The position numbers and the translations under genes were made by a program. This document shows positions 2,269-48,815 of a stretch of 64,000 nt of DNA, piece after piece. This stretch comes from Cymodocea nodosa. Lineage: Eukaryota; Streptophyta; Magnoliopsida; Alismatales; Cymodoceaceae. How positions within the stretch are numbered: the stretch's first letter is position 1; every line of letters begins with the position of its first letter. The notes under the pieces were generated by a model that was not told the DNA's origin, ran no database searches, and worked only from the letters and a program-made list of their open reading frames with translations. The stretch is from NCBI GenBank assembly GCA_036874045.1, contig CM072340.1, positions 7,641,001 through 7,705,000 on the forward strand, written 5' to 3'.

Positions 2269-2275
2269 AGTTTTC

Positions 2276-2674: not shown

Positions 2675-2689
2675 AGTAGTTCACTATTT

Positions 2690-11993: not shown

Positions 11994-13131
11994 ATGGAAT
12001 TGATGAAATTGCCATAGATGCATTGAGGTAAGTACTAAGTAACTTATCAACTAAAGATCTATGCAGATTGTGTTGTGTGTCAAAGGAAATTAAAGACTGT
12101 GTCAGAGAAAAATATTTTCATAGACTACAAGCTGCAAAAATGACTAAGATTAGAGATGGATTTTTATGGAAGTCATTTAATCGTAGTTCAATCAACTATG
12201 AATATCTGAATATGGAAGAAACTGCTGGAATTCCACACAATACATTAGAAGGAATAGATCATATTATGGGGATAGATGAAGGATTAATTATTTACAGAAC
12301 CAAACCAAGGCATGCAATTCTGTTACCCAATATTTTGATTAGAAATCCTATCACTGGAGAAGAATGTAATATAGAAAGGCTTAATAGATTTGAAGTACCA
12401 ACTGAAAATTATGAGTCTACTTTAACATTCTCTAATAAAAATTCAACCATTCCTGAAAAATTGTATTACTAGAGACCAATTGAAAATTGGGATGAAGATT
12501 TATGTTTAACTGTGTATAATTTTCTGAATAGATCTTGGACTGAAAATACTATGATATATCTAGGATAGAAAACATTAATTAACAACATACATGTCATACT
12601 TGATGGATATATATATCTAGTCACAGATATATTAGTTGCATTTAGATCTGATTTATACATAGTGAGCATAGACAATTATGATGATGACTTTATAAAAATA
12701 TTGCCAATACCTAGTGAGATAGCTCAACCACCGTCTACAGAATATGATAAAATTCAATTAGGAATGTGGTATAATGATATGATAATCATACTTTATGTCT
12801 GATTAGATGATGGGATGAACTAATGAAATTTCAAATATGGATTACGAAAGACCTAAATGAATGGAAATGGGAAGAGGAATATATTGAAATAGATGTAGAA
12901 ATAGAAACAACTACATTATCTTGGAACAGAAAAGGATCCCTTTCTGCATTTGAATTTATTAATGGTAATACACTTATATTTAGTATTGATAACATACTAC
13001 AAGTTTACAAATTAAAAAGGAAAGTAAACTGCATTAAAATAGAATTAATAGCAAGAAAAATTATGCCTAAAAAGTTTGCTTCGACTAACACGTTTATTCC
13101 ATTTGTCACTACTTTTCAATCATGTTCTTAA
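11994..13131 (+). pseudogene. Captured F-box / F-box-associated-domain gene, element A
   Basis: F-box proteins are the substrate receptors of SCF ubiquitin ligases. The N-terminus reads as an F-box (DALR.VLSNLSTKDLCRLCC then VSKEIKDCV). The rest resembles the F-box-associated (FBA) beta-propeller-like domain: EGLIIYRTKPRHAILLPN, RNPITGEE, LDGYIYLVTD, LCLIRWWDELMKFQIW, FINGNTLIFSIDN, and the closing FIPFVTTF. About 375 residues, the usual size of this family. Breaks: one base lost near 12013, stops near 12031, 12470 and 12567, and a frameshift near 12780. The gene sits in the element's sense direction, 218 bases after gag. Element C has the same gene in the same place, so it was captured before these copies inserted. 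Confidence 0.8.
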
Positions 13132-14959
13132 ACTGTGATTTTGTACTTTTAATGTTGTCTGTATTTTGCATTTATTTTTAGAGAAAAAGAAGAAAGAAAA
13201 TTTTTAGTTTTAGAAAAGAAAACAAACAAAATATCAATCCAGTTTGTTGGTATCTGTTCTGGGAAACCAACTGGCTTGCTTGTGAGCCACCAAAGGCATA
13301 GGAGCCTGGGTTCCACACAAGACACGACTTTAACAATTTATGTTTTGTTGTTAAGTTGTTATTTTGTTATATTCTGCTTTTATTTGTGAATGAAAAGTTT
13401 TTCAGAATCAAAAAAAGTCAAAAGATGTTGAAGGAGATACAAAAGAACAAGGTATGTAATTGATTACTTATCTTGAATTTACATACAAACTCAATTCGTA
13501 GAGTTATTCATTAACTCTACGAATTAAGTTCGTTGAGTTAGGTGCTATGTAAATGAAACAATATTCATGCCTGCTAATAATTACTGTATTTATTGTAAAA
13601 TCTTTTACATTGAGGACAATGCAAAATGTAGGTATTGGGGGGAGGTAATTAGATTAAAAGCCAAGTAATTTTGTTAATTAGAGGAATTAGAATGGTGCTG
13701 CAAAGTTCTATGGAAATTGAAAATTTTTATGAATTTGCTGTAACTAACTGAAATTTCCTATAACTATCTGATAATTGAGACTGTCAAATTTTTAGGAACT
13801 GTAACTACTTGAATGTTATATTTAGAAGTGTATATAAGATGCTACAAAATTTACTATTATACAAATCTTGATATAGTATCTTATGTTTTTGCTGAATTTT
13901 ATGAGTTTAACAATTTCACGATTTTAAAAAGAAATCAGAATGAAACTCAGTAAATGATTTGAAATCCTGAAAAAGCTGAAATGTTGATTTTTGGATTAAA
14001 TGAAATACATATGATCAAGGATACATTTAATTTGATTGACTAAACTTGTAGAATGATTTATGTGTAAATCTTATTAAACTATAGAAAAAGTATGAGCTTA
14101 TTGATATGGACTCATGTTTTCAGTAAATTATAGAAGTAGGATTATACAAGATTTGTGTTTTATTGCATTTGTATTAATGAAATACGTATATACTATGTTG
14201 AAAAGAAAAAGAAAAAAAAAAGAGAAAAAAACTTTGAGAGTTTATTGACTTGTTTAATCACGAGCCTTTTGTACTTGAGCAAATAGGTATGTAAGGATTG
14301 TTGACCTGAAAAATGACTCTTTAAATCTGGCAACCTAAGATCCTGATTAGATCTAGGAATGTTGACTAAAAGCTCGATACATGGGTACACTAGAAAGCTC
14401 TTGTACGATTCAAGCTTTTTGAATTAACTTTTAAAGTACAAATATGCATATACTGTTTTGAAAAGATAAAAGTATTTTGTGAAATACAGAAATCTTTTGA
14501 ATCAAGTATATTTTTTGTTATCTAATATTACTGAAGTATGAATCTAGACTAGACTTTTGAAGTTGTTTATTTGAGATACAATTCATTATTCTACTTGTTT
14601 TAATCATATTGAATTGGATTGTGTTTTGATTCGTATGTAGTTGAAATTTATTCTGGAAATCATATTGGAAAATTCAGGATAACAGATGTTGAAAAAAAGA
14701 AAAGATGATAATATAATTACCATCTATATGATGCTAATATATTTTGTATGTAATTTACATATGTTTTAAATATATTTGTAGGATGAAGAGGAGAAAACAA
14801 TGTTAAATAGATTGCTTAAAAATACAAAATATCTATATAGTAATCTAATTTATGTATTTTGAAGATACAAAATGAAGAATTAATTCTAGCATGTTAGAAA
14901 GACCAACTAGTTAGATCTAAGTTTGCTAAGGGACTAGCAAAATTTAAGTATGGGGGAAG
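13132..14959 (+). other. 3' non-coding region of element A, with two polypurine-type tracts
   Basis: No gene. CATTGAGGACAATGCA (13608-13623) followed by GGTATTGGGGGGAGG (13631-13645) is shared with B and C. A second conserved segment is GGCTTGCTTGTGAGCCACC (about 13272-13290), also in C. One inverted TTCGTTGAGTTA unit lies at 13495-13545. Bases 13840-14785 match 23430-24360 of the Sirevirus S1. The terminal tract AAGTATGGGGGAAG (14946-14959), preceded by GGGACTAGCAAAATTTAAG, primes plus-strand synthesis and directly abuts the 3' LTR. Confidence 0.75.
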
Positions 14960-15210
14960 TGTTTAGAATGAAAAATGTTGGGTGTCCAGCACACGTATGA
15001 TCCTAGCATGTGTTCTAACAATCGCTTGTGTTGAGAAGATGTCTCATGTTGTCTCGTGACATGTGGCATGATTGAAAGCTGGAGACCAAATGCCTAGGTC
15101 ATACTTGAACAGCACGCGATTGGGTGCTAAGAACCTTTAACAAGATGTTGAGGAGCCTTTGCTAACACCTCGGGATTTTTGCATAGATGGTAGCACCTGA
15201 TCCTAACAAG

Positions 15211-15247
15211 TGGTATCAGAGCCAAGGGTCGCGGGTTCGAGTCCCAA
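15211..15247 (+). other. TRIM primer binding site running into a tRNA-like T-arm / box B
   Basis: TGGTATCAGAGCC is complementary to the 3' end of initiator Met-tRNA. It is followed by GGTCGCGGGTTCGAGTCCC (about 15228-15246), which in the sense direction looks like a tRNA variable loop and T-arm. It contains GGTTCGAGTCC, a match to the Pol III box B consensus GGTTCGANTCC. There is no complete tRNA. Confidence 0.6.
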
Positions 15248-15417
15248 CAGACGCGTACTACATGTACGTGTGCTGGGGGGGTGATTGTTGGGTGTCCAGC
15301 ACACGTATGATCCTAGCGTGTGTCCTAACAATCGCTTGCATTGAGGAGATGCCTCACATTGTCCCGTGACATGTGGCATGATTAAAAGCTGGAGACCAAA
15401 TGCCTAGGTCACACTTG

Positions 15418-17184
15418 TGTTAGTATCCGAGTATTTTGATAATGCAAAACCTATGTGAGGAAACATATTGTATTTCACAGTTAAGTCTTACTGCATTAGA
15501 TCATATTGATGAAAAGATCAAGAAGGTTCTAGATGAACAAATCAAGAAGATTCAGCAAAATCGGACAGTTACAGGTCTAAGTATCCGAAGAGCAAGTTTA
15601 AAGCAGCAACAATGCTATCGGATAGTTAAAAGAATAACTATCCGATTTTACAAAGCCTTCAGAGAGTTATTTAATCAGACAGTTAAAGGGATTGAATGAT
15701 TGGATAGTTAAGGAGATAACTATCCGGAAGCTTAAAGGACTTTTCGGAGAGTTACAGGTATAACTATCCGAAAGTTAAGTCATTCAATAAACCACATGTA
15801 GAAATACAGAACGGAAGCTTAAAAAACTTGTCGGAGAGTTAGATAACTATCTGAGTTTTCTTTTTGGAGAGTTAGATAACTATTCGAGTTTTTCGGTAAG
15901 TTACAGGCATAACTTTCCAGAACTTAAGTCATTTTATTACGCACATGCAAAATGGAGAAGCCGGTAGTTGAAAGTTTAAATGGGAAAATCAGAGAGTTAG
16001 ATAACTATCCAAAATTTAAAAGAGAGTTTCGGTAAGTTACAGTTTAACTATCCAAAACTTAAGTCAGTGAATTTCCCACGTGCAGAAATCCAGATAGATG
16101 CTCAAATAGGTTTTCGGAGAGTTAGAAGGATAACTATCCAAAATTTCAAAAGAGTTTCAGTGAGTTATAGTTTAACCATCCGAAACTTAAGTCATTGAAT
16201 TTCCCACGTGCAGAATTCCAAACAGTGGCTCAAATAAGTTTTCAGAGAGTTAGAAAAATAACTATTCGAAATCTTGAAGAATTTCGATGAGTTACAAGAT
16301 AACCTTCCGAAACTTAAGTCAGTCTTTTATGCACGTGCTAAATTAAAATCGAAAAGTTGATAGAGTCAAGTATATAACTGTTCGGTGAGTTACAGTTATA
16401 AGTATCCGATTGGATGACAACTCACATTTAAATATTCTGGAATCCTACCTGGCAGTAAAGGATAAGTGATCTTTTAGTGAGTTACAGTTCTCTTCGGAGA
16501 GTTGCATAGCTAACTATTCGAAAGAATAGGAAAATCGGTAAGTTGACTTGAAACGTTTTTTTCTGAACGGTCACTTGCCGTATTGGGACTTGATCCTAAT
16601 CAAGTATAGTAGAATACATCCATTGGAGGAAAATATGATCGTTGTACATATCAAGTATATATTCAAAATACAGACAACGGATATACAATAGAGATATACA
16701 GTGAGCTACACTCTAATTCCATTTATACTCAAGTCTGCAAATAGTGAAGAATATTCAAAAGATCCATTGCAGAAAAAGCTCTTGCGCCAAAACTCTGATT
16801 GAAGGTTTAAAGCTGTTGGTTCGTGGCTTCAACCTGAAAGCTACATACAGTGTTGGTTTGAGTTTCGACCTGAAAACTCTAGAGGTTGGTTTACTGAAGT
16901 TTTTACCTGAAAACTTCTGTGTAGTTGGTTCTTGCTTTGACCTGAAAGCAAGTGTGTAAGTGTTGAAACACTTAGTGAAGCCCAAGTGAACCTTGGGGGT
17001 GGACTAGCCAAATTGGTGAACCACCTAAAAATTTGTTGTGTGTTTCTTATCTCTGTTAATTTGCATTATATTAGTTTCATCTCATTTCATTTTTTGTTGA
17101 ATCATTCGATTCAACATTAAAAGAATTTTAAAAATACACACTTTCACCATTCACCCCCCTTTAGTGAGCCTATTGATCCTAACA
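15418..17184 (+). mobile_element. Solo LTR, Sirevirus-like (Ty1/copia)
   Basis: 1767 bp, TGTTAGTATCCGAG...GATCCTAACA, flanked by ACTTG (15413-15417, 17185-17189) and lying in the right LTR of the TRIM. The end (TTCACCCCCCTTTAGTGAG) resembles the LTR ends of S1 and S2. No internal region, primer site or polypurine tract is attached, so it is the product of LTR-LTR recombination. Bases 15700-16350 hold about five diverged units of 110-145 bp, each with GAGTTACAG..TAACTATCCGAAA..CTTAAGTCA..CACGTGC. Confidence 0.85.
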
Positions 17185-17290
17185 ACTTGAACAGCAGGCG
17201 ACTAGGTGCTAAGAACCTTTAACAAGATGTTGAGGAGCCTTTGCTAACACCTAGGGGTTTTAGCATAGATTGTAGCACCCAATCCTAACA

Positions 17291-20223
17291 AGAGATTAAA
17301 AAATAACATTTAGCAGTTTTATGTAGCAGCAATAGTCTATATCACATCTTTTGAAGCCTAAGGTACAGATAAATGTATCAAATCTCTTATATCATTGTCG
17401 TGGTGTTTGCTTCAAACCATACAAACTTTTCAGTAATCTACAAACTGTCTTTCTTTTCTTGCCAGTAACTATAAATCCTTCTAGCTGCATCATGTAAAGT
17501 TCTTCCTGCAAGTCACCATGTAGGAATGCTGTCTTTACATCCATTTGCTCCAAGAGCAAATTTTCTGCAGCAACACTGCTTAAGACTATTCTAATAGTAT
17601 TCATCTTCACAATAGGAGAGAATACTTCTGTATAGTTTATATCTTGAATTTGTTGAAAACCCTTGACGACAAGTCTGGCTTTATATTTCTTGCTACCATC
17701 TGGTTGTTCTTTCATCCTGAACACCCACTTGTTTCCTAGGATTTTCTTTCCTTCTAGCAAAGAAGTTAGCTCCCAAGTATTATTCTTTTCTAGGGATCTC
17801 ATTTCTTCTTTCATTGCTAACTCCCATTTGTGTGCATCACTTACATAGATTGCTTCTTGATATGTTTCAGGTTCACCATCATTCGTCAATAACAGATAAT
17901 TGAATGATGGTACATACCTTTCTAGTTGTCTGGAAATCCTTCCAGACCTTCTAAGTTGTCTAGTGACAACTTCATCTTCTTGATCATCTAGATGTTCTTG
18001 ATGTTCAGCCTTTGGAAGCTGAGATTCTTCTATAGGTTCCTTCTGAGGTTGTTCAACATCATTATCTAGATTAATCTCAACAGTACTTCTAGACTGAAGC
18101 TCTGACTATTGTTCTTCTGCATTTTCTCTATGCTTAAACATCTTGGACTCAATGAATATGACATCTTTTGCATGGATTATTTTCTTGGTTTCTTCTACCC
18201 AGAATCTGTAACCAAAATAATCCTTACCATAGCCAATGAAATAACATTTCTGTGATTTTGAATCCAACTTGTCTCTTTTGTCACTATTCAAGTGGACAAA
18301 TGACTTGGATCCAAAGACTTTCAAGTGAGCATAGTTGACCTCTTTACCTATCCACAACTCTTCAGGGTTCTTAAGCTCCATTGGGATAGATAGTCCTCTA
18401 TTTATTAGATAGGTAGCTATATTAACAGCTTCTGCCCAGAATGTTTTGGGAAAACCTGCATGTAGTCTCATGCATATTGCCCGTTCATTCAAGGTCCTGT
18501 TCATCCTTTCAGCAACTCTATTTTGTTGTGGAGTTTTAGCTACAGTCCTCTGCCTTCTAATTCATTGCTCCTCATAGTAAACTTTAAATTCATGGCTATC
18601 ATATTCTCCCCCATTATTTGACTTGATGGATTTGATTTTTCTTCCACTCTGATTTTCCACTTTTGCCTTCCATTTCTTGAAGACTTGGAAAACTTCAGAC
18701 TTCTATTTCAGAAAATAAACCCATACCTTCCTTGTACTATCATCAATGAAGGTGACATAATAGAGAGTACCTCCTAAAGAACTGATAGGAGCAGACCCCC
18801 ACACATTCGTGTGAACCAGCTCCAATTTCTATGACTTAGGATCATGAGGATTACTGGCAAAGCTGACTTTCTTTTGCTTTCCCTCAATGCAGTCCTTACA
18901 TATCCCTAAATTGACATTCTTCAGCTTAGGGATTTTCCCTTCTGCCACTAAAACTTTCAGTCCATTCTCACTGAGGTGTCTCAATCTTTTATGCCATAAG
19001 TCAGTGTCTTTAGTATCACTAACTGCTGCAATAGAGTCATCTTGATCCGATGTTAAGTATAAGGTGTTTGTAATCTATCCTAAGGTAATAATTCTTGCAC
19101 CTTTGGTTACCTTCCATTTGCTTGCACCAAAGGTAATCTGATAACCATCATTGTCTAGGGAACTTATGGAAATTAGTTGCTTTGCAAGATCTGGAACATA
19201 TCTGACTTCTTGCAATTTCCATATCCCTTGCTTAGTTTTTATGTGTACCTCTCCTATTTCCAACACATCCAGACTTGTGTTGTTAGCTAGGTACACTTTT
19301 TTCATAGGAGTTGCACGATAATTGTGCAACAAATCCTTCTTATAGGTAGTGTGGAAAGAAGCTCCTGAGTCTAGTACCCATGAGTCAATTGAACTGTCAA
19401 TACAGTATACTAGGGCATCATCTGAATTGTAGGAGACAACATTTGCAATAGCTTCTTCTGATTCCTTCCCTCTATTGTCTTTCTTGGGAGCCTTACACTA
19501 TGACTTGAAGTGCCCCCATTGATTGCAGTTCCAGCATTTGATATCTGCTCTCATTTTACTGGTACCTCTGGACTTTGACCTTCCTTTGGATTTAAATTGT
19601 TTTGATTTACTTCTCCCTCTAATTTCAACACTAAGGGAAGAAGTTGAAGTTGACAATTCACTTTTCCTGCGAATGTCCTCACTCAAAATTAAATCCTAGA
19701 TGTCACTCATCTTGAGCTTCTCATGACCTAGTGAACTACTTACACTAGTCACGACAGGAGACCAACTTTCTGGTAATGAGGATAATAAAATCAAGGCCCT
19801 AACTTCATCATCAAATATTATATCTACTGAATGCAGTTGATTCAGAATAGTATTTAGCTCATTAACGTGGTCAGTTACATTTCCACTTTCGTGCATTTTC
19901 AGATTAAATAATCTACGCATGAGAAATACCTTGTTGGTAGTTGAAGGCTTCTCAAACATGTTGGACAAAGCTTTCATCAAGTCAGCTGTTGTTTTCTCCT
20001 TGGCAACGTTTGAATGAACATTCCTTGCCAGTGACAACCTAATGAGACCTAGAGCTTTTCTGTCCAATAACTCCCACTCTTCCTAATCCATCTTCTCTAG
20101 TTTTCTTCCAAACAAAGGTTGATGAAGATCCTTTTGATACAAACAGTCTTCGATCTGAGACCTCTAGTATCTGAAATCTTTACCATCAAACTTCTCGATC
20201 CTAAGCTTTCTATTGTCTACCAT
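17291..20223 (-). pseudogene. Copia gag-pol polyprotein, element T (truncated)
   Basis: Starts at ATG 20223 (MVDNRKLRIEKFDGK). Order: Gag core (20067-19696, MRRLFNLKMHESGNVTDHV), CCHC knuckle CWNCNQWGHFKS then stop then C (about 19540-19500), protease WVLDSGASFHT (about 19380-19350), GAG-pre-integrase DLWHKRLRHL, integrase ([24 protein letters not shown]), RT (NKWVFRMKEQPDGSKKYKARL, split here by the GSK turn; MDVKTAFLHGDL near 17550-17515), ending before YVDD. The first two integrase Asp residues read Asn, both G-to-A type changes. About seven stops. It once served integration and replication; it is now dead. Confidence 0.85.
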
Positions 20224-20245
20224 TCTGTTAAACTGAAGAACCTTT

Positions 20246-20258
20246 GGCTCTAATACCA
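20246..20258 (-). other. Primer binding site of element T
   Basis: Read on the minus strand: TGGTATTAGAGCC, two bases after the LTR. It is a one-base variant of the initiator Met-tRNA site TGGTATCAGAGC. Confidence 0.8.
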
Positions 20259-20260
20259 GT

Positions 20261-20588
20261 TGTTGATACTATTACGGATTGTTTAGTTAACCTTCTATGG
20301 CTCGATATTGAAACACTCGACTCTAAACTCACCGAAGCTAGGAGTGAAGAATAAAAGAAGAAATAATACAGAGAAGAAATAGGATTTACGTGGTTGATTG
20401 TGCCGAAGCTCATAAAGGAACCCTCAACTCTCCATGGACGTAGGCTGTTGCTGAACCACGTAAATCCTATTTCTTTTCTGTATTATTTCTTCTTTTACTC
20501 TTCACTCCTAGCTTCGGTGAGTTTATAGCTGAGTGTTTTAGTATCGTGCCATAGAAGGTTAACTAAACGATCCGTAATAGTATCAACA
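20261..20588 (-). repeat. 5' LTR of element T, built as a long inverted repeat
   Basis: 328 bp, TGTTGATACTATTACGG at both ends in opposite orientation. Arms 20261-20395 and 20454-20588 (about 135 bp each) are reverse complements with roughly ten to twelve mismatches by eye. The loop is about 58 bp. LTRs normally share only a few inverted bases at their ends. Confidence 0.8.
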
Positions 20589-22595
20589 AAAAAGTGCATA
20601 ATATTAACGGTTAAATGATGGTTAATTAAATAATATTTAGCTTATCATACGAGAATTAAGCCAATATGTTATAATTACACTATTATATGCTTTAATGAAA
20701 GAATCTACATAAATTCAAGAAATTAACATTAATTAAGTACATTTTTGAACTGTCGGTAAGTTGCAAGTTTTTAATTCCTAAGTATCTAAATTTTTTGTTA
20801 TTTTGAAGAGTTATATTGCATGTACCGAATCGTTATATTTTAAACACTTAAAGAATATTTTATTATTTCCTAGAGTACACGTGTTGTAACCACAATGCAT
20901 GACTTAAGTGGATTTTCGGTAAGTTATCTGTTAACTATCTGAAATGCATTTGGGCATTGGATAGTTAGAGTTGCAAGTATCTGAAATATCTTTTTATTAT
21001 AAAACTGCTTGAGGACACATGTCATGATCTGGAAACTTGACTTAAGTTATCTTTCAGAAGGTTAGGTGCTAACTATCTGAAATACATATAAGTTTCGAAT
21101 ACTTATATTTGTAACTATCTGAAACATCTGAACTTGTTATTTCTTAACTGCACGTGTTTTATAGATGAATCAACAAAGTAAGTCCATCGAGTTATCTATT
21201 ACTTCATAGACCATTTATTTTTTAATATGCCACTATAGTAGTTGTAGAAATAGGAAATTCAAAGGAAAACCACGATTGCACGTATCTTGCAGGAATTCAC
21301 TTGTGGAATGAAAAAGAAATCACCATCGTTGATATGAATGAAGGAAATCCAACCGATCATCTAAGCAGAAGTAGTTACTACAGAAAGAAATATAAAGAAA
21401 AGGAGAAAGACGAAGAAAAAGTGTATGCGAAGAGGTGGAGAACCGCACTAACTGTAGGAAGCGTTGGAAGTTCCCTGAAGCGCCACACCACCACCAAAAT
21501 CACCAACCATCGGAGGTCTGTATGGATACTTTCCTGATGTCGGGTCGATTCCGAGCCAAACATGGTGATTGACAACTACTGTGAGGAGTGATCGCGTCGT
21601 GGGAAGGGAAGCCATTTTCACTAAGCATTGACTCATATCTCAAGAGATCGTAAAACTTCTAGCCTTAGTTTGGGGTTGATGCTAGTATGCTGAAGAGGAG
21701 ATCATCTTACAATTCTTGATTCACGAATCTATAGGGAGAGGAGGCAGGATTGTAAGTGATTAAGTTTTCAGTGGTGTAATCACGTCACATGTAGTGACGA
21801 AAGTTTTTACTGCCAATAGAGATTTTTTACATTTCACCTTTCGCTCATCTTCAGAAACATATCAAAACAAAAATACCAAAAATAACAAATTATCTATGTT
21901 TACATTTAGTATTAAAGTGTTATATTGTTTGTTTTGTATCGTGATTAATGTTATCATTGTCAGTATTGTGGATGTTTTTATGTTTGTTTGATTCAGAAAA
22001 TAGAAAATAGTTTTATAGTTTACTGAAATTGAATCATTCCAAATACTTAAAGATTTTAATGGTTACTATTTGAAATATCTGAATGTTAGAGTTGCTTAAT
22101 GATGAATCTAATATTAACTAACATTAAAGAGCTTAATTGGTGTTATTTACATTCTATGGAACCACCCAATGGTTGGCCGTATTCCTTTGTAAATAGTAGC
22201 ATTTAACTGGAAAAGTAGGTTCGTGGAGTTAACTTAAGTCCACGAAGTTAGTCCGTTGAGTTAGCCATAACTCCACGAACTAAGTCCGTTGAGTTAACTG
22301 TAACTCAATAGAGTGCTTAACCAAACACATATAAACTCCAATATAAAAATCAAAATAGTACACAATTCTTACTCAATCTTTGTGGGATCGATCTGTACTT
22401 GCACACAAATACAATATACATTGTGCACTTGTAGTAAAAAATACAAATTGGATTTAATATCTAATTTGTGTGAAAGGTTGTTTGTTTACTTCTAAAAGTA
22501 ATTGTTTATATAAGCATAAAAACAAATTAAACAAGTTTTCTGGCACTATTGTATAAACAAGTTTCTGATTTAACTTTTCACAACAATATAGCATG

Positions 22596-26995: not shown

Positions 26996-26997
26996 AC

Positions 26998-37066: not shown

Positions 37067-38605
37067 TGTTCAAGCTTTAATTTTGCCCATTTTTAATGAA
37101 TTTTATAAGTAATTTTGCATGATATTATATATCTATGATGGATAAATGATATTAATTATGGGTAATATAAGTCTTGAAATATAGTGCAATATAGAAATTT
37201 AATTAACAAGTGCATCCCCCATTGAATATAATTTTACATGGAACACATTGATTTTATTTTGAATGTCCTATGTTGGCTAACGTCTCTTGGAGTTCAATTT
37301 CCATTAATTGTAGGTAACACACATATGGAAGGAGCTTAATGCAAAAGACCAAAAGAAGATGTAAAGAATCAAAAGTTGGTGGACTAAACTTTAAAGAAGA
37401 GGGCATGCCAACACCTTATTGGCCCTCCTAGATCTATGGCATCCTATTGGCTTGGTGATAAAACCAAGGTGCCACATCAAAGAGAGAGAACACATGCTAA
37501 CATAAAGGCAAGGGGAGAGGAATTTCGTAGGCCACCTTGGTGTTTCCAAGGAGAGAAAGAAGGAGGAGAAGAAGCTTGGAGGTGAGGCTTGTGCTTCCAA
37601 AGAGAGACCACCCATTCATGCTATTCACCATTCCAAGGGCTAAGGAGAAGACGTCCAAGCTTGGAGGTGGATTTGCTGCCAAGTTCCATTGAATTCAAAG
37701 CTCTAGAGAAGAAGATAAGAAGCTCCTAAGGTAGTGACAACTCTTAGAGTTTATTATTTTCTTGTATAGAAGGAAGAATTGATGAGAAATGGTGGTGAAC
37801 ATCTCAATTATATGTCTTCTTAGCTAGATAGAGTTCAATGAATGTATATGAATGTTTAATTCTTCTTTTCAACTTCTAATTTGCATCCTCTATTCACGTG
37901 TATTGTTGGGGCTGTTGGTGAGGCTTTCACACGAGCGAATGACACTCATCAATGGTGGCTTGGCGCATTTGAGAAGAAGGTGTGAATTGAAAGAAGAAGA
38001 AAATAAGTGTTGATGTTCATTTGAATGAAGAACCTATCACTTATATCTAGTTGTTAATTTTAATTTCAATAGTTAATTGAGTTTGTTATATCTTATATTG
38101 ATCACATTTTGTCCTAATCAATCTCCAAAAAGAATTTCTAATGCAAGTAGTATAGTATAGTTTAGCTAGATTAGCAAATAGCATAGTTGCATGCATTTAG
38201 TATAAATTAGAATAGAGTAGTATAGTCTATTGAACCTTGTTATTTTATTTTTCTTTCCTTAATATTGATGCATTAATATCACTTCTGAAATCACGTGGAA
38301 CTTGTGTGCATGTTATAATTGAATGAGTTGATAGATTTACAAGTAAAGAAATTGATTCACATCACCATTTTCCACTACAAATTGCCTTGAAATTGCATGA
38401 TTTGTGAGCTTATGTTAACTTTGATTATTCTACATTCACATGTCATTAATTTACTGAAGTATACCTAAGAGCTTGAAGAACAAGTTGAGTAATAGTTGAT
38501 TGAGTCATAAACACAATCCTTGTGGAAGAATGACCTGTATTTGCCATGTACACCAAAAGAACTGTGCACTTGCAGTAAAGCTTGAGCTAAAAATATAGCT
38601 CAACA
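37067..38605 (+). repeat. 5' LTR of element B
   Basis: 1539 bp, TGTTCAAGCTTTAATTTTGCCC...ATAGCTCAACA. Short minus-strand open frames inside it (near 37391-37682) recur identically in the 3' LTR only because the LTRs are copies. It ends with GTGCACTTGCAGTAAAGC close to the 3' border, a motif shared with the A/C LTRs. Confidence 0.93.
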
Positions 38606-38611
38606 AGTTTT

Positions 38612-38629
38612 TGGCGCCGTTGCCGGGGA
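38612..38629 (+). other. Primer binding site of element B (Asp-tRNA type)
   Basis: TGGCGCCGTTGCCGGGGA, six bases after the 5' LTR. It is the standard site of plant Athila/Tat elements. Confidence 0.92.
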
Positions 38630-38754
38630 TTGGCAATTTGGCTTAGTTTATTTTTACCATATTTGAAGTTCTTAGTTGGTTGTTTGATAAATTTTCATAA
38701 ACATATCTTTCTTGTGCTTAGTTGTGAATTTTATTGCTTAAATTTCTTGCAAGT

Positions 38755-41700
38755 ATGTCAAATTTTCATCATGATGATCCTTTTAAGTTTATAAATGATT
38801 TTTTATCTGAAAGTGCTTGTTCTTATTGCCATGTAAAAGGTCATGATGAAAGCATATGTACCAGCAAGTTATTTTATATAAAAATTCAACCAGTAGAAGA
38901 AACAACTCATGTTAGTGATGAATATGATGTCTTGCATGATGCTAGTGAATTTTCTTACGATTTTGATATGCATAAATCTCATATTGATAAAAGAAATGAT
39001 GTTTGTGATTGCTCTCATGTTAGTAGTAGTTCTATAGAAGAGTCCATGAGGAATATAGAGAGAATCATAGAGTTAGGAGATAGCTATTATGTTGCCACTA
39101 AGCTCCTACAACAAAAAGAAGATGTAATTGTCATAGATGATGAAGAAGACTCTAATGTAGATAAAAACGTGAATTTAATCTTAAGATCTGGAAAAACCAT
39201 AGAAAGAAACATATTAGAACATGAAAGTGAAGAAAAAAAAAGTGAAGAAAACGTAGATGAAAAGGAAGAAAATATGTTGACAAGAGATGAACATAAGGAT
39301 GTAGAACTAGAACATGAAGGAGTTGAACTTGAAAAATGTCTAATGGATGAAACTAATGAAGAATTAATTGAAGAAAACCCTGTTATAGACTTAGAAATGG
39401 ATAAAAAGAAAGAAGAAACATCTGAAAATATGAACAACAAACCACCATTTCCTAGTTGGCTAGACAACAACAAAGAAAATGAGGAAAATGAAGCTATAAG
39501 AACCATATTTGAGAAAATCAATGTTAATATGCCTATGTTAGAATTAATTAGAAAAATTCCAGCATATGGGAGGGTGCTTAAAAACCTTTGTACCAAGCAT
39601 AGGAAGCCAAGAAAAAAATTAAGTAAGCAAGTTTATTTAACCGAGTTAAGTAGTTCAATGTTGCTTGATAGTTTAGCTAAAAAATTCAATGATCCTGGTG
39701 TTCCTCTAATAACTTGCTTAATAGGGAATGTTTTAATTGAAAAAGCATTATTAGATCTTGGTGCAGGAGTTAACGTGATGCCAAAACACTTATATGAACA
39801 ATTGGGAATCACAGGAATTAAGAAAACTAGAACACTAATTAAACTAGCTGATAGATCATATAGGAGTCCCATGGGTATTGTAGAAGATGTCTTAATTCAA
39901 ATTGAAGATTTTATATACCCAGCCGACTTTATCATTTTAGAAACCAATGCACCAACTTGTGAACCAAATGAATCTACATTGATCCTAGGGAGACCATTCT
40001 TAGCAACTATTAATGCCCACATTAATTGCAGAAATGGTAAAATGTCAATCTCCTTTAACAATAAGGTGATATCATTGAACATTTTTAAAAGGGATAGGAC
40101 TATAAACCATCAAATAGATGACAACATTAGTGTAAGCATTTCTGAATTATTTGAAGAAGTTGAAAATAGTAGTAATGAGGAAGAACTTAGTGCTGAAATT
40201 TGCTTTCTAGATGTTGAAGATAATCTAGAACACAAGGCATCGTTACAAGAGAATAGTGGTGAGCATGAAATGAATAATGACTTGATTTTAGAAGTTAAGG
40301 AAAGGAATAAATTAAAAGCACTCCCACAAAATCTGAAATATGCATTTATAGATAAGCAAAATGAATATCCTGTTATAATTGGAGCAAACTTAATCCCAAA
40401 CCAAGAAGAAAAATTAATGAAGATATTAAGTAAAAACAAGAGAGCTCTTGGTTGGCAATTGAGTGATATTGTAGGAGTTAGTCCCACTATAGTTCAACAT
40501 AGAATTATCCTAGAAGATGAGAACTATGCCTTTAGAGAACCTCAACGTAGATTAAATCCCCAAATGAGTGAGGTGGTAAAGAAGGAGATAGTTAAATGGC
40601 TTGACAATGGCATTATATACCCTATTAGTGATAGTAGGTGGGTAAGCCCTGTGCATGTAGTACCTAAGAAATCGGGCTTTACAGTAGTTGAAAATCAAGA
40701 TCATGAGTTAGTGCCTACTAGAATAAAAACTAGTTGGAGGGTATGTATTGATTATCGTAAATTGAATTCTGCAACTCGTAAAGATCATTTCCCATTGCCA
40801 TTTGTTGATCAGATGCTAGAAAGGTTAGCTGGACATGAATTTTATTGTTTTCTTGATGGATACTCTGGGTACAATCAAATACCCATAATCTCTGAGGATC
40901 AAGAAAAGACTACTTTTACTTGTCCAAGTGGAACCTATGCTTTTAGGCATATGCCTTTCAGTTTATGTAATGCGCCTGCAACATTTCAAAGATGCATGGC
41001 AGGAATTTTTTATGATATGAATGAAAAATTTTTAGAAATTTTCATGGATGACTTTTCTGTTTTTGGCAAAAATTTTGATATTTGTTTACATCATTTAGAT
41101 ATGGTTTTGCAAAGATGTGTTGAAAAGAATTTTATTTTAAATTGGGAAAAGTGCCATTTCATGGTGAATGAAGGCATAGTTCTTGGGCATGTGATATCTA
41201 ATAGAGGGATTGAGGTGGATAAGGCAAAAATTGACGTTATATCTCATTTGCAGCCACCTAAATCTATTAAGGAGGTTAGAAGCTTTTTAGGACATGCTGG
41301 TTTTTATCGTAGATTTATTCATGATTTTAGCAAGATAGCAAGACCTATAACTAATTTACTTGCAAAAGATTCTGAGTTTGTTTTTGATGAACATTGTCTT
41401 GCTGCCTTTAATCAACTTAAGCATGCATTAATATCTCCTCCTATAATTCATGCCCCAATATGGGATTATCCTTTTGAAATTATGTGTGATGCCTCCAATT
41501 ATGCAGTAGGTGCAGTACTTGGGCAAATAATTGATAAGAAACATCATGTCATATGCTATGCTAGTAAAACTTTGAATGAAGCTCAAGTAAATTATACTAC
41601 CATAGAAAAAGAATTTCTTGCTGTTGTTTTTGCTCTAGATAAATTTAGACCATATTTAGTTTGCAATCAAGTTATTGTGCATACTGATCATGCAGCTATT

Positions 41701-43200
41701 AAACATTTGATGAGTAAAAAAGATGCAAAACCAAGATTAATTCGTTGGGTTTTATTGTTGCAAGAATTCAACATAGAAATTAAAGATAAGGTTGGAAAAG
41801 AAAATTTAGTTGCTGATCACCTCTCTAGATTAGAAAATATTCCAGCATGCAATAATGTGATTAATGAAAAATTTCCTGATGAGAGTTTATTTCTAGTTGG
41901 TAAGTTACCTTGGTTTGCAGACATTGCTAACTATCTTGCTACAGGGTTAATACCAACTGATTTATCTAAACCAAATAAGAAAAGATTGAGGTACATGGCT
42001 AAACATTATGTTTGGATGGAACCTTATTTGTATAAAATGGGTTCTGATCAAATTTTAAGAAGATGTCTTCCTGAAGATGAAATTGCTATTGTCTTAAATT
42101 TTTGTCATAATCATGCTTGTGGAGGTCATCTTAGCCATAGAAAAACTTCTTTGAAAATTCTTGAATGTGGATTTTATTGGCCTTCTCTAATTAAAGACTC
42201 TAAAGATCATTGTAGACATTGTGATAGATGCCAAAGAATGGGAAAAATTTCCAAACGAAATATGATGCCTTTGAATCTTATCATTGAAGTTGAAATTTTT
42301 GATGTATGGGGCATTGATTTCATGGGACCATTTCCCATTTCTTTTGGTTATTCTTATATTTTGTTGGTTGTTGATTATATTTCTAAATGGATTGAAGCTA
42401 TCCCAACTAAGAGAAATGATGCTAAAGTTGTTGATTTTCTTAGATCTAACATTTTTGCTAGATTTGGTATTCCAAGAGCTATAATTAGTGATAATGGACC
42501 TCACTTTTGCAACAGAGTATTTCAAATGGCTTTGAGGAAGTATGGGGTTACTCACAAGTTAGCAACACCATATCATCCTCAAACAAGTGGGCAAGTTGAG
42601 GTATCCAATAGACAAATCAAGCACATGCTCGAAAAAGTAATCAAACCAAGTAAGAAGGATTGGGCAGAAAAGCTTAATGATGCACTTTGGGGTTATAGGA
42701 CTGCCCATAAAACTGTGTTGGGAATGTCACCATTTAGAGTAGTTTATGGGAAAGCATGTCATTTACCTATAGAAATAGAACATAAAGCAGAATGGGCTAT
42801 TAGAACATTTAACATGTGTGTTGATGATGCAGGAAAAGCAAGAAAATATCAACTCAATGAGCTGGAAGAAATAAGAAGAGAGGCTTATGAAAATGCAAAG
42901 ATTGCAAAAGAACGAGCAAAAGCATTCCATGACAAGAAAATTTTGAGAAAGGACTTTCATGAGGGACAAGAAGTTTTAATATATAACTCTAGATTACATT
43001 TGTTCCCTGGAAAATTTAAGACTAGATGGACAGGACCATTCATCATTAAACATATATATAATCATGGAGCTATAGCTATAGAAAATTGTAAGACAGGATT
43101 TAAAACTATAGTGAATGGTCAAAGACTTAAAGAATATTATCTTGGAAAAACCTACAATCATGGAGAGAGTGCTTTGTTGTTGGAACCCAATTATAATTAG
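38755..43200 (+). CDS. pol: Intact Athila pol polyprotein with zinc knuckle, element B
   Basis: 1481 residues from ATG 38755 (an in-frame TTG at 38734 is less likely). Order: zinc knuckle CSYCHVKGHDESIC (about residues 22-35); acidic Glu/Lys linker with NLILRSGKT; protease LLDLGAGVNVMP (about 332-343) and LILGRPFLATI; RT WRVCIDYRKLN, FLDGYSGYNQI and FMDDFSVFG (catalytic Asp pair, about 41045); RNase H CDASNYAVGAVLGQ, EKEFLAVVFAL and HTDHAAIKHL; integrase HHCC (HNHACGGH...CRHCDRCQ), WGIDFMGPFP, SDNGPHFCN and TSGQVEVSN (D, D, E all present); C-terminal FPGKFKTRWTGPF. All catalytic residues are present and there is no stop. Unusual: no Gag core precedes the knuckle, where Athila elements normally have about 400 residues of it. 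Expression should come from the 5' LTR. Confidence 0.93.
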   Translation: MSNFHHDDPFKFINDFLSESACSYCHVKGHDESICTSKLFYIKIQPVEETTHVSDEYDVLHDASEFSYDFDMHKSHIDKRNDVCDCSHVSSSSIEESMRNIERIIELGDSYYVATKLLQQKEDVIVIDDEEDSNVDKNVNLILRSGKTIERNILEHESEEKKSEENVDEKEENMLTRDEHKDVELEHEGVELEKCLMDETNEELIEENPVIDLEMDKKKEETSENMNNKPPFPSWLDNNKENEENEAIRTIFEKINVNMPMLELIRKIPAYGRVLKNLCTKHRKPRKKLSKQVYLTELSSSMLLDSLAKKFNDPGVPLITCLIGNVLIEKALLDLGAGVNVMPKHLYEQLGITGIKKTRTLIKLADRSYRSPMGIVEDVLIQIEDFIYPADFIILETNAPTCEPNESTLILGRPFLATINAHINCRNGKMSISFNNKVISLNIFKRDRTINHQIDDNISVSISELFEEVENSSNEEELSAEICFLDVEDNLEHKASLQENSGEHEMNNDLILEVKERNKLKALPQNLKYAFIDKQNEYPVIIGANLIPNQEEKLMKILSKNKRALGWQLSDIVGVSPTIVQHRIILEDENYAFREPQRRLNPQMSEVVKKEIVKWLDNGIIYPISDSRWVSPVHVVPKKSGFTVVENQDHELVPTRIKTSWRVCIDYRKLNSATRKDHFPLPFVDQMLERLAGHEFYCFLDGYSGYNQIPIISEDQEKTTFTCPSGTYAFRHMPFSLCNAPATFQRCMAGIFYDMNEKFLEIFMDDFSVFGKNFDICLHHLDMVLQRCVEKNFILNWEKCHFMVNEGIVLGHVISNRGIEVDKAKIDVISHLQPPKSIKEVRSFLGHAGFYRRFIHDFSKIARPITNLLAKDSEFVFDEHCLAAFNQLKHALISPPIIHAPIWDYPFEIMCDASNYAVGAVLGQIIDKKHHVICYASKTLNEAQVNYTTIEKEFLAVVFALDKFRPYLVCNQVIVHTDHAAIKHLMSKKDAKPRLIRWVLLLQEFNIEIKDKVGKENLVADHLSRLENIPACNNVINEKFPDESLFLVGKLPWFADIANYLATGLIPTDLSKPNKKRLRYMAKHYVWMEPYLYKMGSDQILRRCLPEDEIAIVLNFCHNHACGGHLSHRKTSLKILECGFYWPSLIKDSKDHCRHCDRCQRMGKISKRNMMPLNLIIEVEIFDVWGIDFMGPFPISFGYSYILLVVDYISKWIEAIPTKRNDAKVVDFLRSNIFARFGIPRAIISDNGPHFCNRVFQMALRKYGVTHKLATPYHPQTSGQVEVSNRQIKHMLEKVIKPSKKDWAEKLNDALWGYRTAHKTVLGMSPFRVVYGKACHLPIEIEHKAEWAIRTFNMCVDDAGKARKYQLNELEEIRREAYENAKIAKERAKAFHDKKILRKDFHEGQEVLIYNSRLHLFPGKFKTRWTGPFIIKHIYNHGAIAIENCKTGFKTIVNGQRLKEYYLGKTYNHGESALLLEPNYN

Positions 43201-44293
43201 TTTTTATATGTATTTAGTTGTAGATGTAGTTTTTCTTTTCTTAATTTTTAGTAATTTTTCATTATATGTATTATTGTGTTAGTAGTTAACAATAAAATTG
43301 ATTATTGCAAGTTCACGTCTAAATTTTATATGCATGATTTTCTAATACTTGAAGGGTGTAGAATGGGTTGAAAGACTTTATCATGATATCATGTGTTTGT
43401 TTGACAAATTGATGTTCAACCATAATTAGAGTTAAATACAATTTATCTACACCACTTGAAGAGCAATGCACAACAGGTATGTGCTAACATTTTTTTACTT
43501 ATTCTTATTGTTGAAACAATCCTTTCTACATTGAGGACAATGCAGGAATTAAGTGCGGGGGGGAGGAGAAAGTAAAAAAATGTTTTAGGATGCATACTAC
43601 AGCAATGAAATTGAAAATTTTCCAAATGTAAGTTTCTTTCACAAGCAAGTTGGTGGTAAGTTTGAAAATTCGTTCTATATGTTGCATGCCACCATGTTTT
43701 ATGTGTATCCATGATAAGAACTTGCATGTCAATTTTTTTTAGGAAATAGCTTTGTTAGTTTAATTTTGATTTTGAATTATTGCATCTTAGCCTTACTAGC
43801 ATATTACTCAATCTCCATTGTATGCTCTTAAGGTTAAGATCATTAATTCTTTATTAGTTTTAGCTTTGTTTTCATTTGAACTTAATTTCTTTTTGTGGCA
43901 TGTTGAATTTTCCTCAGTAATGTTCTTTCCTTATGATGTCTTACACTTAGAGCTAAGCTTATCTTTAAGGTGAGGATAGGAATATGCATTTGAGATGCCA
44001 ACCATAGTTTCTTACTTATAACATATACACATTCTTGCACTAGACTCTTAATCATGTGCTATCTAGAGGACTCTTCTTATGACATGAATCTTGAGGAGTG
44101 GCTTAGGAAATCTTTCCAATAGGTTATCCCATGAGAAGGGTAGATATATGAATTTAGGAATAAGGTTTGATACCTGTTCTCATAAGGTTGCTGGGGATGG
44201 AGGCTAAGTAACCTCTTAGTCTTCACGTGTAAACCCTTTATGGGAGGTATCCTAAGGGTAGTGGTAGGATGTGAGAAAAGAGAGGTATCTATT

Positions 44294-44332
<39 letters not shown>

Positions 44333-44753
44333 GAAGAAGTTGTTCTATAGAATGAATAAAGAAAATACTTTTATAGAATCAAAAAGAAGAAAAATTCAAT
44401 TGAAAATAAAGGGGCAATGTACTAGAGGATAGAAGCCTAAAGAAACCTTCATGTATTCTTGGATTAAGTGAGATGAACCTAGATGCTATTGATTATGGGT
44501 CTAAGCACTTTGCACTTAATAGTATCTTAAAAACTTATTTTCCTTAGGTTGGCATTAGATGTCTATTCTAAATTCCTCACCATTACAGGAACTCAACTTG
44601 TGAGTGGAGATTATCTATAAGTATGGCATTACTTGGTGAGAATTTAATTTGCCTTAATTTTCTTTATTGTGTTTGTTTGTTTAAAAGGGATTCCTTAATC
44701 TTTTCTTCTTTAAATTTTGCTAGAGGACTAGCAAAGTTTAAGTGTGGGGGGGG
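43201..44753 (+). other. 3' non-coding region of element B
   Basis: No gene. CATTGAGGACAATGCA (43529-43544) followed by a G tract (43556-43566) matches A and C. A run of 30 A lies at 44295-44324. The terminal polypurine tract AAGTGTGGGGGGGG (44740-44753), preceded by GGACTAGCAAAGTTT, abuts the 3' LTR. Confidence 0.85.
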
Positions 44754-46292
44754 TGCTCAAGCTTTAATTTTGCCCATTTTTAATGAATTTTATAAGTAAT
44801 TTTGCATGATATTATATATCTATGATGGATAAATGATATTAATTATGGGTAATATAAGTCTTGAAATATAGTGCAATATAGAAATTTAATTAACAAGTGC
44901 ATCCCCCATTGAATATAATTTTACATGGAACACATTGATTTTATTTTGAATGTCCTATGTTGGCTAACGTCTCTTGGAGTTCAATTTCCATTAATTATAG
45001 GTAACACACATATGGAAGGAGCTTAATGCAAAAGACCAAAAGAAGATGTAAAGAATCAAAAGTTGGTGGACTAAACTTTAAAGAAGAGGGCATGCCAACA
45101 CCTTATTGGCCCTCCTAGATCTATGGCATCCTATTGGCTTGGTGATAAAACCAAGGTGCCACATCAAAGAGAGAGAACACATGCTAACATAAAGGCAAGG
45201 GGAGAGGAATTTCGTAGGCCACCTTGGTGTTTCCAAGGAGAGAAAGAAGGAGGAGAAGAAGCTTGGAGGTGAGGCTTGTGCTTCCAAAGAGAGACCACCC
45301 ATTCATGCTATTCACCATTCCAAGGGCTAAGGAGAAGACGTCCAAGCTTGGAGGTGGATTTGCTGCCAAGTTCCATTGAATTCAAAGCTCTAGAGAAGAA
45401 GATAAGAAGCTCCTAAGGTAGTGACAACTCTTAGAGTTTATTATTTTCTTATATAGAAGGAAGAATTGATGAGAAATGGTGGTGAACATCTCAATTATAT
45501 GTCTTCTTAGCTAAATAGAGTTCAATGAATGTATATGAATGTTTAATTCTTCTTTTCAACTTCTAATTTGCATCCTCTATTCACGTGTATTGTTGGGGCT
45601 GTTGGTGAGGCTTTCACACGAGCGAATGACACTCATCAATGGTGGCTTGGCGCATTTGAGAAGAAGGTGTGAATTGAAAGAAGAAGAAAATAAGTGTTGA
45701 TGTTCATTTGAATGAAGAACCTATCACTTATATCTAGTTGTTAATTTTAATTTCAATAGTTAATTGAGTTTGTTATATCTTATATTGATCACATTTTGTC
45801 CTAATCAATCTCCAAAAAGAATTTCTAATGCAAGTAGTATAGTATAGTTTAGCTAGATTAGCAAATAGCATAGTTGCATGCATTTAGTATAAATTAGAAT
45901 AGAGTAGTATAGTCTATTGAACCTTGTTATTTTATTTTTCTTTCCTTAATATTGATGCATTAATATCACTTCTGAAATCACGTGGAACTTGTGTGCATGT
46001 TATAATTGAATGAGTTGATAGATTTACAAGTAAAGAAATTGATTCACATCACCATTTTCCACTACAAATTGCCTTGAAATTGCATGATTTGTGAGCTTAT
46101 GTTAACTTTGATTATTCTACATTCACATGTCATTAATTTACTGAAGTATACCTAAGAGCTTGAAGAACAAGTTGAGTAATAGTTGATTGAGTCATAAACA
46201 CAATCCTTGTGGAAGAATGACCTGTATTTGCCATGTACACCAAAAGAACTGTGCACTTGCAGTAAAGCTTGAGCTAAAAATATAGCTCAACA
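44754..46292 (+). repeat. 3' LTR of element B
   Basis: Starts TGCTCAAGC, where the 5' copy has TGTTCAAGC, and ends GCTCAACA before ACAGG. Nearly identical to 37067-38605. Confidence 0.93.
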
Positions 46293-46880
46293 ACAGGCAT
46301 CAACCCAAAGCCAAGGCTAGAAGCTTTACGATCTCCTGAGATATGAGTCGGTGCTTGGTGAAAATGGCTTCCCTTCCCACGACGCGATCACTCCTCACAA
46401 TGGATGTCAGACACTGTGTTTGGCTCGGAATTAACCCGACATCAGAAAAGTATCCTCACAAACCTCCAATGGTTGGTGATTATGGTGGTGGTGGAGATGG
46501 TTGGTGTGGTACTTCAGAGAATTACCGACGTTGCTTGTAGAAAGCTTGGTGATCCTCCTTTGCACACATTGGCCACACCTATCGGCCACACACACTTTAC
46601 TTCTTTTTCTTCTTTTCTTTTATATTTCTTCAGTGGTAACTGCTTCTGCTTGAATGGTTAGTTGGATTTCCTTCATTTATATCAACGACGATGATTTCTT
46701 CTCCCTTCGATGAGTGAATTCCTACGTGATACGTGCGATTGTGGTTTTTTTCTTCCAACTGTCCTATTTCTGCAACTGCTATAGTGACATATTAGAAAAT
46801 AAATGATCCGTGGAGTTACAAATAACTCAATGGACTTGCTTCGTTGATTTAACTATAAAACACATGCATAAATTTTAATC

Positions 46881-47683
46881 TAGAATTCACATCTCAGCTC
46901 TTTCAGGACTTTAGATAATTTACTGATTTTTCATTAAGCATTCTGATTTCATTTTAAAATCGTGAAACTGTTAAACTCATGAAATTCAGAAAAAAAACAT
47001 AAGATACTATATCTAGATTTGCATAAATAATAAATTCTATAGCATCTTATATAGCCTTCTAAATATAGCATTCAAGCAGTTACAGTTTATAAAAATTTTA
47101 CAGTCTCAATTATCGGATAGTTACAACAAGTTCAAAAAAAAAAAATTTCAATTTTCACAAACTTTTCAGTACCATTTTAATTCCTTTAATTAACAAACTT
47201 ACATGGTTGTTACTTTAATTACCTCCCCCCCATACCTACATTTTGCATTGCCCTCAATGTAAAAGATTTGACAATAAATACAGTAATTGTAGCAGGTATG
47301 AATACAATTTCGTTGATTTAGCACCTAACTCAACGAATGAGATTAAATCTAAATTCAGGATAAGTAATCAATTGCATACCTTGTTTCATTTGTATCTCCT
47401 TCTGCATATTTTGATTTTTGATTCTGAAAAACTTTTCATTCACAGATAAAAGCAGAATATATAACAAAATAACATTTAACAGATATTGATAAATTAGTGT
47501 CTTGTGTGGAACCCAGGCTCCTATGCCTTTGGTGGCTCACAAGCAAGCCAGTTGGTTTCCCAGAACAGATACTAACAAATTGGATTGATATTTTGTTTTT
47601 GTTTTTATAAAATAAACTAAAACTAAAATTTTTCTAAAAGTAAATGCAGAAAACACACAACATTAAAAGCATAAAATCACAGC
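46881..47683 (-). other. 3' non-coding region of element C
   Basis: No gene. It corresponds to 13132-13990 of A. On the minus strand it has CATTGAGGGCAATGCA (47259-47244) and the G tract (about 47233-47223), and the shared GGCTTGCTTGTGAGCCACC (about 47529-47547). The part of A from about 13990 to the 3' LTR is missing here. Confidence 0.75.
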
Positions 47684-48815
47684 TTAAGAACATGATTGAA
47701 AAGTAGAAACAAATGGAATAAACGTGTCAATCCAAGCAAACTTTTTTGGCATAATTCTTCTTGCTATTAATTCTGTTTTAATGCAATTCGTGTTCCTTTT
47801 TAATTCGTAAACTTGTAGTATATTATCAATGCTAAATACAAGTGTATTACCATTAATGAAATGAAATGTAGAAAGGGATCCTTTTCGGTTCCAGGATAAT
47901 GTAGCAGTTTCTATTTCTACATCTATTTCAATATATTCCTCTTCCCACTTCCATTCATTTATGTCTTTCATAATCCATATTTGAAATTTCATCAATTCAT
48001 CCCACCATCTTATCAGACATAAAGTAGGATCATCATATTCATTATACCACATCCCTATTTGAATTTTATCAAATTCTACAGATGGTGGTTTAGCTATTTT
48101 TCTCGGTATAGGCAAAATTTCTATATATTCATCATAATTATCTATGCTTACTATGTATAAATCAGATCTAAATGCAACTGATATATCTGTGACTAGATAT
48201 ATATATTCATCAAGTATGACATGTATGCTGTTAATTAATGATTTCTGTCCTAGATATATCATAGTGTTTTCAGTCCAAGATCTATTCAAAAAGTTATACA
48301 CACTCAAGCATAAATCTTCATCCCAATTTCCTGTAGGTCTCCAATAATATAATTTTTCAAGTCGAATTTTTATCAGAAAATATTAAAGCTAACCCACAAT
48401 TTTCAGTTGGTACTTCATATCTATTAGGTCTTCCTATATTCCATTCTTCTCTTGTGATAGGATTTCTGATCAAAATATCAGGTAATAGAATTGCATACCT
48501 TGGTTTGGTCCTATATATAATTAATCCTTCATCCATCCCCATAATATGATCTATTCCTTCTAATGTATTGGGTGAAATTCCAGTAGTTTCTTCCATATTA
48601 AGATATTCATGGCTAATTGAACTACGATTAAATGACTTCCATATGAATCCATCTCTAGTCTTAGTCATTTTTACAGCTTGTAGTCCTTGAAAATATTTTT
48701 CTCCAACATAGTCTTTAATTTCCTTTGATACACAACACAACCTGCACAAATATTTAGCTGACAAGTCACTTAGTACTTCCCTTAGTGCATCCAACGGTAA
48801 TTGCATCAATTTCAT
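47684..48815 (-). pseudogene. Captured F-box / F-box-associated-domain gene, element C
   Basis: Better preserved copy of the gene at 11994-13131. It starts at ATG 48815 (MKLMQLPLDALREVLSDL). The F-box spans about residues 5-40 (AKYLCRLCCVSKEIKDYV), the expected Skp1-binding segment of SCF ligases. The FBA-like part has EGLIIYRTKPRYAILLPD, RNPITREEWNI, YIYLVTDISVAF, LCLIRWWDELMKFQIWIM, FINGNTLVFSIDN and FIPFVSTF. Total about 375 residues. The only break I find is a loss of about five bases near 48357 (A has ATTCC there) that shifts the frame; no other stop occurs. The gene lies 185 bases after gag in sense orientation. The target of such a protein cannot be predicted. Confidence 0.82.

Follow-up and report, generated by a model that had tools for sequence, protein, structure and literature searches.

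The 64,000-nucleotide window analyzed here, positions 7,641,001 to 7,705,000 (forward strand) of contig CM072340.1 in the Cymodocea nodosa assembly GCA_036874045.1, holds two related long terminal repeat (LTR) retrotransposons, designated A and C, each of which carries an open reading frame (ORF) for an F-box protein between gag and its 3' LTR. Both elements were delimited by blastn self-comparison and by comparison of their flanks. Element A lies on the plus strand (258..22590), with a 5' LTR at 258-~2266 and a 3' LTR at ~20589-22590 that are 91.8% identical to each other. The target site duplication (TSD) GCATG is present at both ends of A, and a paralogous empty site is found near 63835, within a stretch (63583-64000) that matches the left flank of A (1-258) at 93% and the right flank (22590-22756) at 83%. 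Element C lies on the minus strand (36198..60641) between two copies of the TSD CAACG (plus strand), with its 5' LTR at 60641-58825 and its 3' LTR interrupted by a younger insertion and so split into 46875-46293 and 37066-36198. The two elements are 81-82% identical over two long internal stretches in the blastn self-comparison, and the order of reverse transcriptase (RT), RNase H and integrase typical of Ty3/gypsy is present according to Pfam profiles. Judged from these sequences, the family is Athila-like Ty3/gypsy, a name that rests on the type of primer-binding site (PBS), which we take to be the Athila-type tRNA-Asp site, and on an ORF resembling Transposase_32. The latter domain is reported for a sunflower Athila in the available text of PMC11728184.

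The N-terminal 152 codons of the F-box ORF of C (48360..48815, minus strand) match PF00646 with an E value of 1.5e-8 and 34.6 bits, the F-box itself spanning residues 4-38; after a single frameshift, the C-terminal part continues as an open frame (47684..48382, minus strand) through the region that is FBA_1-like in sibling copies. The ORF of A (11994..13131, plus strand) is broken, and its PF00646 match (E 3.6e-6, 27.1 bits) falls on 12032-12469. Both scores exceed the curated cut-off of 20.5 bits. The proposal of an earlier note, made from the letters of this window, that the same F-box ORF follows gag in sense orientation at both places is borne out. The further claim that both copies encode a protein of roughly 375 residues is right for C, one frameshift aside, and wrong for A, which has four stops and two frameshifts. 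This ruin of A had been overlooked, as had the position of gag downstream of pol. As the note had stated, the F-box ORF of C is nearly intact (no stop, one frameshift), but the many lesions it ascribed to pol of C are borne out only in part, RT-integrase having two stops and one frameshift in 637 codons. When gag is read from its ATG, the comparison over 292 codons counts one stop and three indels that shift the frame.

Gene order within the elements and across the genome

Following its 5' LTR, element C presents a PBS-like site, a linker, RT, RNase H, integrase, a Transposase_32-like ORF, gag, the F-box ORF and the 3' LTR. On the minus strand, the RT ORF occupies 55871..57523 (PF00078, E 2.2e-31), RNase H 55140..55751 (PF17917, E 1.1e-26) and the integrase core 54375..55040 (PF00665, E 3.5e-12); the Transposase_32-like ORF, between pol and gag, lies at 51303..52031, and the gag ORF (Retrotrans_gag; PF03732, E 1.3e-5, and tblastn), which adjoins the F-box ORF, at 49000..50185. 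By tblastn, the Transposase_32-like ORF of A was placed at 8461-9177 and its gag ORF at 10664..11466 (plus strand). Both Transposase_32-like ORFs were recognized through a sibling copy, L037, to which those of C and A are 79% and 76% identical in tblastn; the PF20167 match of L037 itself has an E value of 6.8e-6 but, at 26.5 bits, stays below the cut-off of 45 bits.

Within A and C, Pfam profiles and tblastn detected gag 3' of pol only, and none upstream of pol, where it is expected in the Athila lineage. In C, the coding sequence that comes first behind the leader (57725..58771, minus strand) is linker-like in translation and lacks a gag core, with no PF03732 match in 57725-58435 and no gag match by tblastn. 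Its start (58640-58771, minus strand) contains a CxxCxxxxH stretch resembling a degenerate zinc knuckle, which is more complete, as CCHC, in the younger element at 37067-46292. Possibly, the nucleocapsid part was left with pol while the capsid core went 3'.

A search of the same assembly (374.6 Mb) with the N-terminal 152 residues of C returned 5,059 first-look candidates, and all 150 genome places that were scored, the best-scoring of these candidates, had E values below 1e-84, a level that chance cannot explain. By hand count, 94 of the 150 have no stop within the matched stretch, a figure that is biased because the scored places are the best-scoring ones. Among 20 fetched 10-kb loci, most of them selected for a long open F-box frame, the ORF is open to its usual end in seven (L021 and L024-L029). 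Several copies retain an ORF of ~380 codons, 13 of 54 copies have neither a stop nor a frameshift in it, and PF00646 matched all eight sibling ORFs that were scanned. The family is high-copy, and the F-box ORF is a stable component of it.

We place gag 3' of pol because 11 of the 20 fetched loci (L021, L024-L026, L028, L029, L034-L037 and L039) share the order from pol to F-box, albeit with internal gaps in L025, L035 and L039 and with the gag stretch lost in L036. The 5' leader aligns across five copies (C, A, L022, L030 and L039), two of which, L030 and L039, align onward from the LTR into pol with no gag between. A pol-before-gag order would demand an unusual route to Gag in excess of Pol; none of the literature matches listed describes gag 3' of pol.

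Plant F-box families are large, and their size would agree with a host F-box family that grew through gene duplication and only happens to have retroelements around it. We find this scarcely credible: the TSDs enclose the whole of units A and C, the 11 loci share one order from pol to F-box, and distances between F-box ORFs co-vary with those between RT sequences (r 0.91 over 13 copies). They likewise track gag distances (r 0.76 over 29 copies), and the gene has therefore been inherited with the element.

The gag sequence adjoins the F-box ORF in 19 of the 20 loci, L036 being the exception and L031, L032, L033 and L038 having partial gag. Four loci (L022, L023, L027 and L030) have lost pol and kept gag plus F-box, and the remaining five contain no C-like pol inside the fetched stretch. 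Such persistence of the pair could mean that the F-box protein acts on Gag or integrase, setting how much of it there is or how it matures, and thereby limits or times transposition. Adjacency alone says little, however, and the pol-less copies do not form one selected sub-family because their junctions differ, which leaves self-regulation a minor contender, on the unlikely side.

Element C has an acceptor-like site, a pyrimidine-rich tract followed by AG, at a distance of 9 nt ahead of the F-box start codon (48825..48862, minus strand); the AG of this site is kept in 15 of 19 sequences, and a GTATGT motif, near 50374 in C, is found upstream of gag in all 14 sequences aligned. Together, these motifs would fit spliced downstream messages. 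Between gag and the F-box start, many copies also have an inverted repeat, AACTCAACG...CGTTGAGTT (48890-48930, minus strand, in C), and a similar motif recurs near 47340.

Selection among the copies

The earlier note had taken the lesions of C as a hint of constraint on the F-box ORF. The lesions of one copy are a weak argument and do not demonstrate it, but constraint as such is upheld by a comparison among copies. Variants in 54 copies were sorted by the number of copies carrying each, and the ratio of nonsynonymous (N) to synonymous (S) changes was expressed relative to the expectation from permutations that preserve the base change and its CG/CHG/CHH context. Before the counts, repeat loci of one place were removed, as were the additional F-box copy of L023 and copies whose alignment was too short; alignment cells that fell in a gap or no more than 2 nt from one were also dropped. 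This context-preserving permutation superseded a first version of the test, in which N/S fell in the control frames too, probably because shared variants have a different mix of base changes.

Private variants looked neutral, with 300 N, 78 S and 21 stops (expected 291.7, 80.3 and 27.1) and a ratio of 1.06. The ratio was 0.63 for variants in two to five copies (145 N, 68 S and 16 stops; expected 161.9, 48.1 and 20.5) and 0.61 for those in at least six copies (94 N, 60 S and 2 stops; expected 105.7, 41.2 and 8.9). In this last class, the two other sense frames and two of the three antisense frames, read as controls, gave 0.94 to 1.32. Leaving out three near-identical copies (51 rows) yielded ratios of 1.08, 0.63 and 0.58 for the three classes. 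When variants in at least two copies were compared over the same 13 copies, the F-box ORF stood at 0.43 and RT-RNase H-integrase at 0.38; for shared variants in the same 29 copies, the values were 0.58 for the F-box ORF and 0.55 for gag. Between two subfamilies (5 versus 47 copies, 70% threshold), 18 N differences stood against 16 S, distributed 12/4/18 over the codon positions and free of stops, and this N:S count departs from the 300:78 of private variants (p 0.001); at an 85% threshold, 9 N stood against 7 S (p 0.055). The reported subfamily test excludes L052, and with L052 as its own cluster there was no signal.

These counts indicate purifying selection on variants common to several copies. 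They speak for an accessory gene under selection rather than for a passenger, a functionless piece of a host gene that was transduced and then multiplied along with the element. A passenger would explain why private variants are neutral and many copies broken, and lone F-box genes within LTR elements are known, as in Thlaspi arvense (available text of PMC8764390). It would not lead one to expect in-frame constraint on shared variants, close to the level of RT-integrase in the same copies, or the lack of stops among the subfamily differences, and we hold it to be very improbable.

Origin, C-terminal half and proposed role

Capture of the gene from the host, as the earlier note had it, is unproven, since the search for a closest parent among proteins and at the scored and inspected places of the plant's own genome found none. 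The protein searches, which drew candidates from 5.8 billion proteins and reached only relatives sharing short exact words, gave 1,297 candidates for one ORF, none at E ≤ 0.01, and 2,998 candidates for eight aligned ORFs, none at E ≤ 10. Sequence searches of the PDB returned nothing below E 1. As a control, the host F-box/kelch gene L061 found 510 proteins, the best from Colocasia esculenta at 73%, with Zostera at 71%; plant proteins are therefore in the searched database. Within the genome, a PF00646 search gave 4,219 candidates, of which 150 were scored and one non-element gene, L061, was inspected. No host FBA_1 gene was found among the 15 of 30 FBA_1 places that were identified, all of them element copies. 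The note had held that neutral dN/dS (nonsynonymous over synonymous rate) combined with the lack of a host parent would refute its proposal; the parent was indeed not found, but the ratios are not neutral.

The FBA-like domain that had also been announced has profile matches in some siblings and none at E ≤ 1 in the C-terminal pieces of the window. FBA_1 (PF07734) matches four of eight sibling ORFs at E ≤ 10, with a best E value of 9.2e-5. Of 31 candidates from a whole-genome FBA_1 search, 30 matched at E ≤ 10 (best E 0.0043); the cut-off was passed at 16 of these 30 places, at four of them only with neighbors in frame. Thirteen of the 30 places were fetched, all 13 align with the element F-box ORF, and two more are L034 and L025. 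The match is weak, yet it recurs at the expected position behind the F-box, and by these profiles the C-terminal half is FBA_1-like and divergent from known families. With the F-box as the best-supported domain and a C-terminal half so divergent, the protein could act as an SCF (SKP1-cullin-F-box) decoy or scaffold, engaging SKP1 or some host partner but leading to no degradation of a substrate; this seems to us distinctly unlikely, although no observation here contradicts it directly.

We consider it probable that this Athila-like family encodes an F-box protein with an FBA_1-like half as an integral accessory gene, most likely an SCF substrate receptor. The earlier note had suggested such a receptor on a retroelement, and with a stable family gene under purifying selection it would be the natural reading. 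The protein, presumably made from a spliced downstream message, would most likely enter the host SCF ubiquitin ligase via SKP1, and its C-terminal domain would recruit a substrate for degradation, the removal of which helps the element. That substrate would be a factor by which the host restricts or silences the element; a protein of the element itself is the less likely choice.

Several observations weigh against the receptor reading. Structure models of two window pieces reached a predicted local distance difference test (pLDDT) score of only 31.7 and 33.0, the C-terminal pieces of A and C have no Pfam match at E ≤ 1, FBA_1 staying below its cut-off there, and the FBA_1 similarity is weak in general. 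On the side of selection, antisense frame 2, one of the five controls, also falls (0.69, p 0.008), and the F-box domain alone, at 0.53 in the class of at least six copies (p 0.056), shows no stronger constraint than the remainder of the ORF. The set of 13 copies used for the comparison with RT includes seven that were chosen for a long open F-box frame, which lowers the stop counts. For private variants, RT-integrase and gag each gave 0.64, against 0.87 and 0.93 for the F-box ORF when counted in those copies; the F-box ORF may therefore be less constrained overall than either.

Lentiviral Vif and Vpx are a parallel for accessory proteins that remove a host factor. It is conceivable, as a tentative extension of the receptor reading, that an LTR lineage evolved its own SCF receptor as a retrovirus-style accessory gene, with its genome reorganized, its downstream genes spliced and a silencing factor removed, and that the gene would then be a retroelement counterpart of polerovirus P0 or of Vif/Vpx. 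As to the target, the F-box protein might send a host RNA- or chromatin-silencing protein to degradation, by analogy with the action of polerovirus P0 on ARGONAUTE1. The selection results suggest that the gene benefits the element, and plant viruses encode F-box proteins to such ends, namely, P0 and CLINK (available text of PMC3588083); we regard this counter-defense as possible, though short of likely.

Neighboring elements and known systems

The younger insertion inside the 3' LTR of C (37067-46292, TSD ACAGG) is itself Athila-like. Given LTRs that are 99.7% identical, one open pol frame of 1,488 amino acids and no gag match, it is possibly a recently mobile, gag-less element. A Copia-type element is nested in the 3' part of A (14070-20588, minus strand), with RVT_2, SH3_retrovirus and Retrotran_gag_2 on minus-strand ORFs within 17395-20067. 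A second one occupies 25770-36055, with an LTR-like pair (25770-26995/34806-36055) at 91.6% and a Retrotran_gag_2 match. Between A and C, 33570-34183 resembles Transposase_32 for a third time in the window, in diverged form (separate pieces are 32-49% identical), and neither an F-box nor a gag match was found near it.

Among the closest known systems is Athila itself, with which the family presumably also shares the tRNA-Asp type of PBS. Athila elements with env-like or extra ORFs between pol and the 3' LTR, as far as described in the accessible text of PMC7264820, PMC2410132 and PMC11728184, have in common with A and C the LTRs and a Transposase_32-like ORF 3' of pol; here, in contrast, pol precedes the gag core and an F-box/FBA-like ORF stands beside the 3' LTR. 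For pol-less Athila copies of Arabidopsis, the same portion of PMC2410132 reports gag and env under purifying selection. An F-box gene tied to an LTR retrotransposon is likewise known from the Thlaspi arvense "LTR-gene" TaChr6G576, so that, by the available text of PMC8764390, a lone case of this kind is already published; that gene is reported to be a single host gene that was duplicated, whereas the present ORF is common to many copies of one family, among which it shows selection. The stable gain of a host-type regulatory domain by a gypsy lineage also has a precedent in the orchid Ty3/gypsy elements with an ALKBH5-like N6-methyladenosine (m6A) demethylase (PMC9289625, as accessible), which differs in function. 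The main text of that survey of 121 angiosperm genomes, so far as available, contains the term "F-box" zero times.

An F-box ORF common to a retrotransposon family was not described in the literature searched, which did not extend to bioRxiv preprints or to many subscription papers, and none appears in the accessible parts of PMC7264820, PMC9289625, PMC6317226, PMC11728184, PMC11963269, PMC2410132, PMC3588083 and PMC8764390. The element is of a known kind; what was not found in that literature is an F-box gene that runs through a whole family of these elements. Plant retrotransposons often hold extra ORFs of no assigned use; here, a biochemical role, the choice of ubiquitination targets, is recognizable and selection has left a measurable mark, so that the effect of accessory genes on the host becomes testable via protein partners.

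Plant F-box/FBA_1 proteins (PF00646 plus PF07734) have the same layout, with an FBA_1-like region behind an F-box at the N-terminus, but the FBA_1 match of the element is weak and the protein searches scored no relative. The F-box proteins of plant viruses, polerovirus P0 and nanovirus CLINK (PMC3588083, as accessible), offer the other comparison, in that a parasitic genome likewise encodes its own F-box protein. They belong to viruses rather than to LTR retrotransposons; if the receptor reading is true, the F-box strategy of plant viruses would extend to a resident element of the genome.

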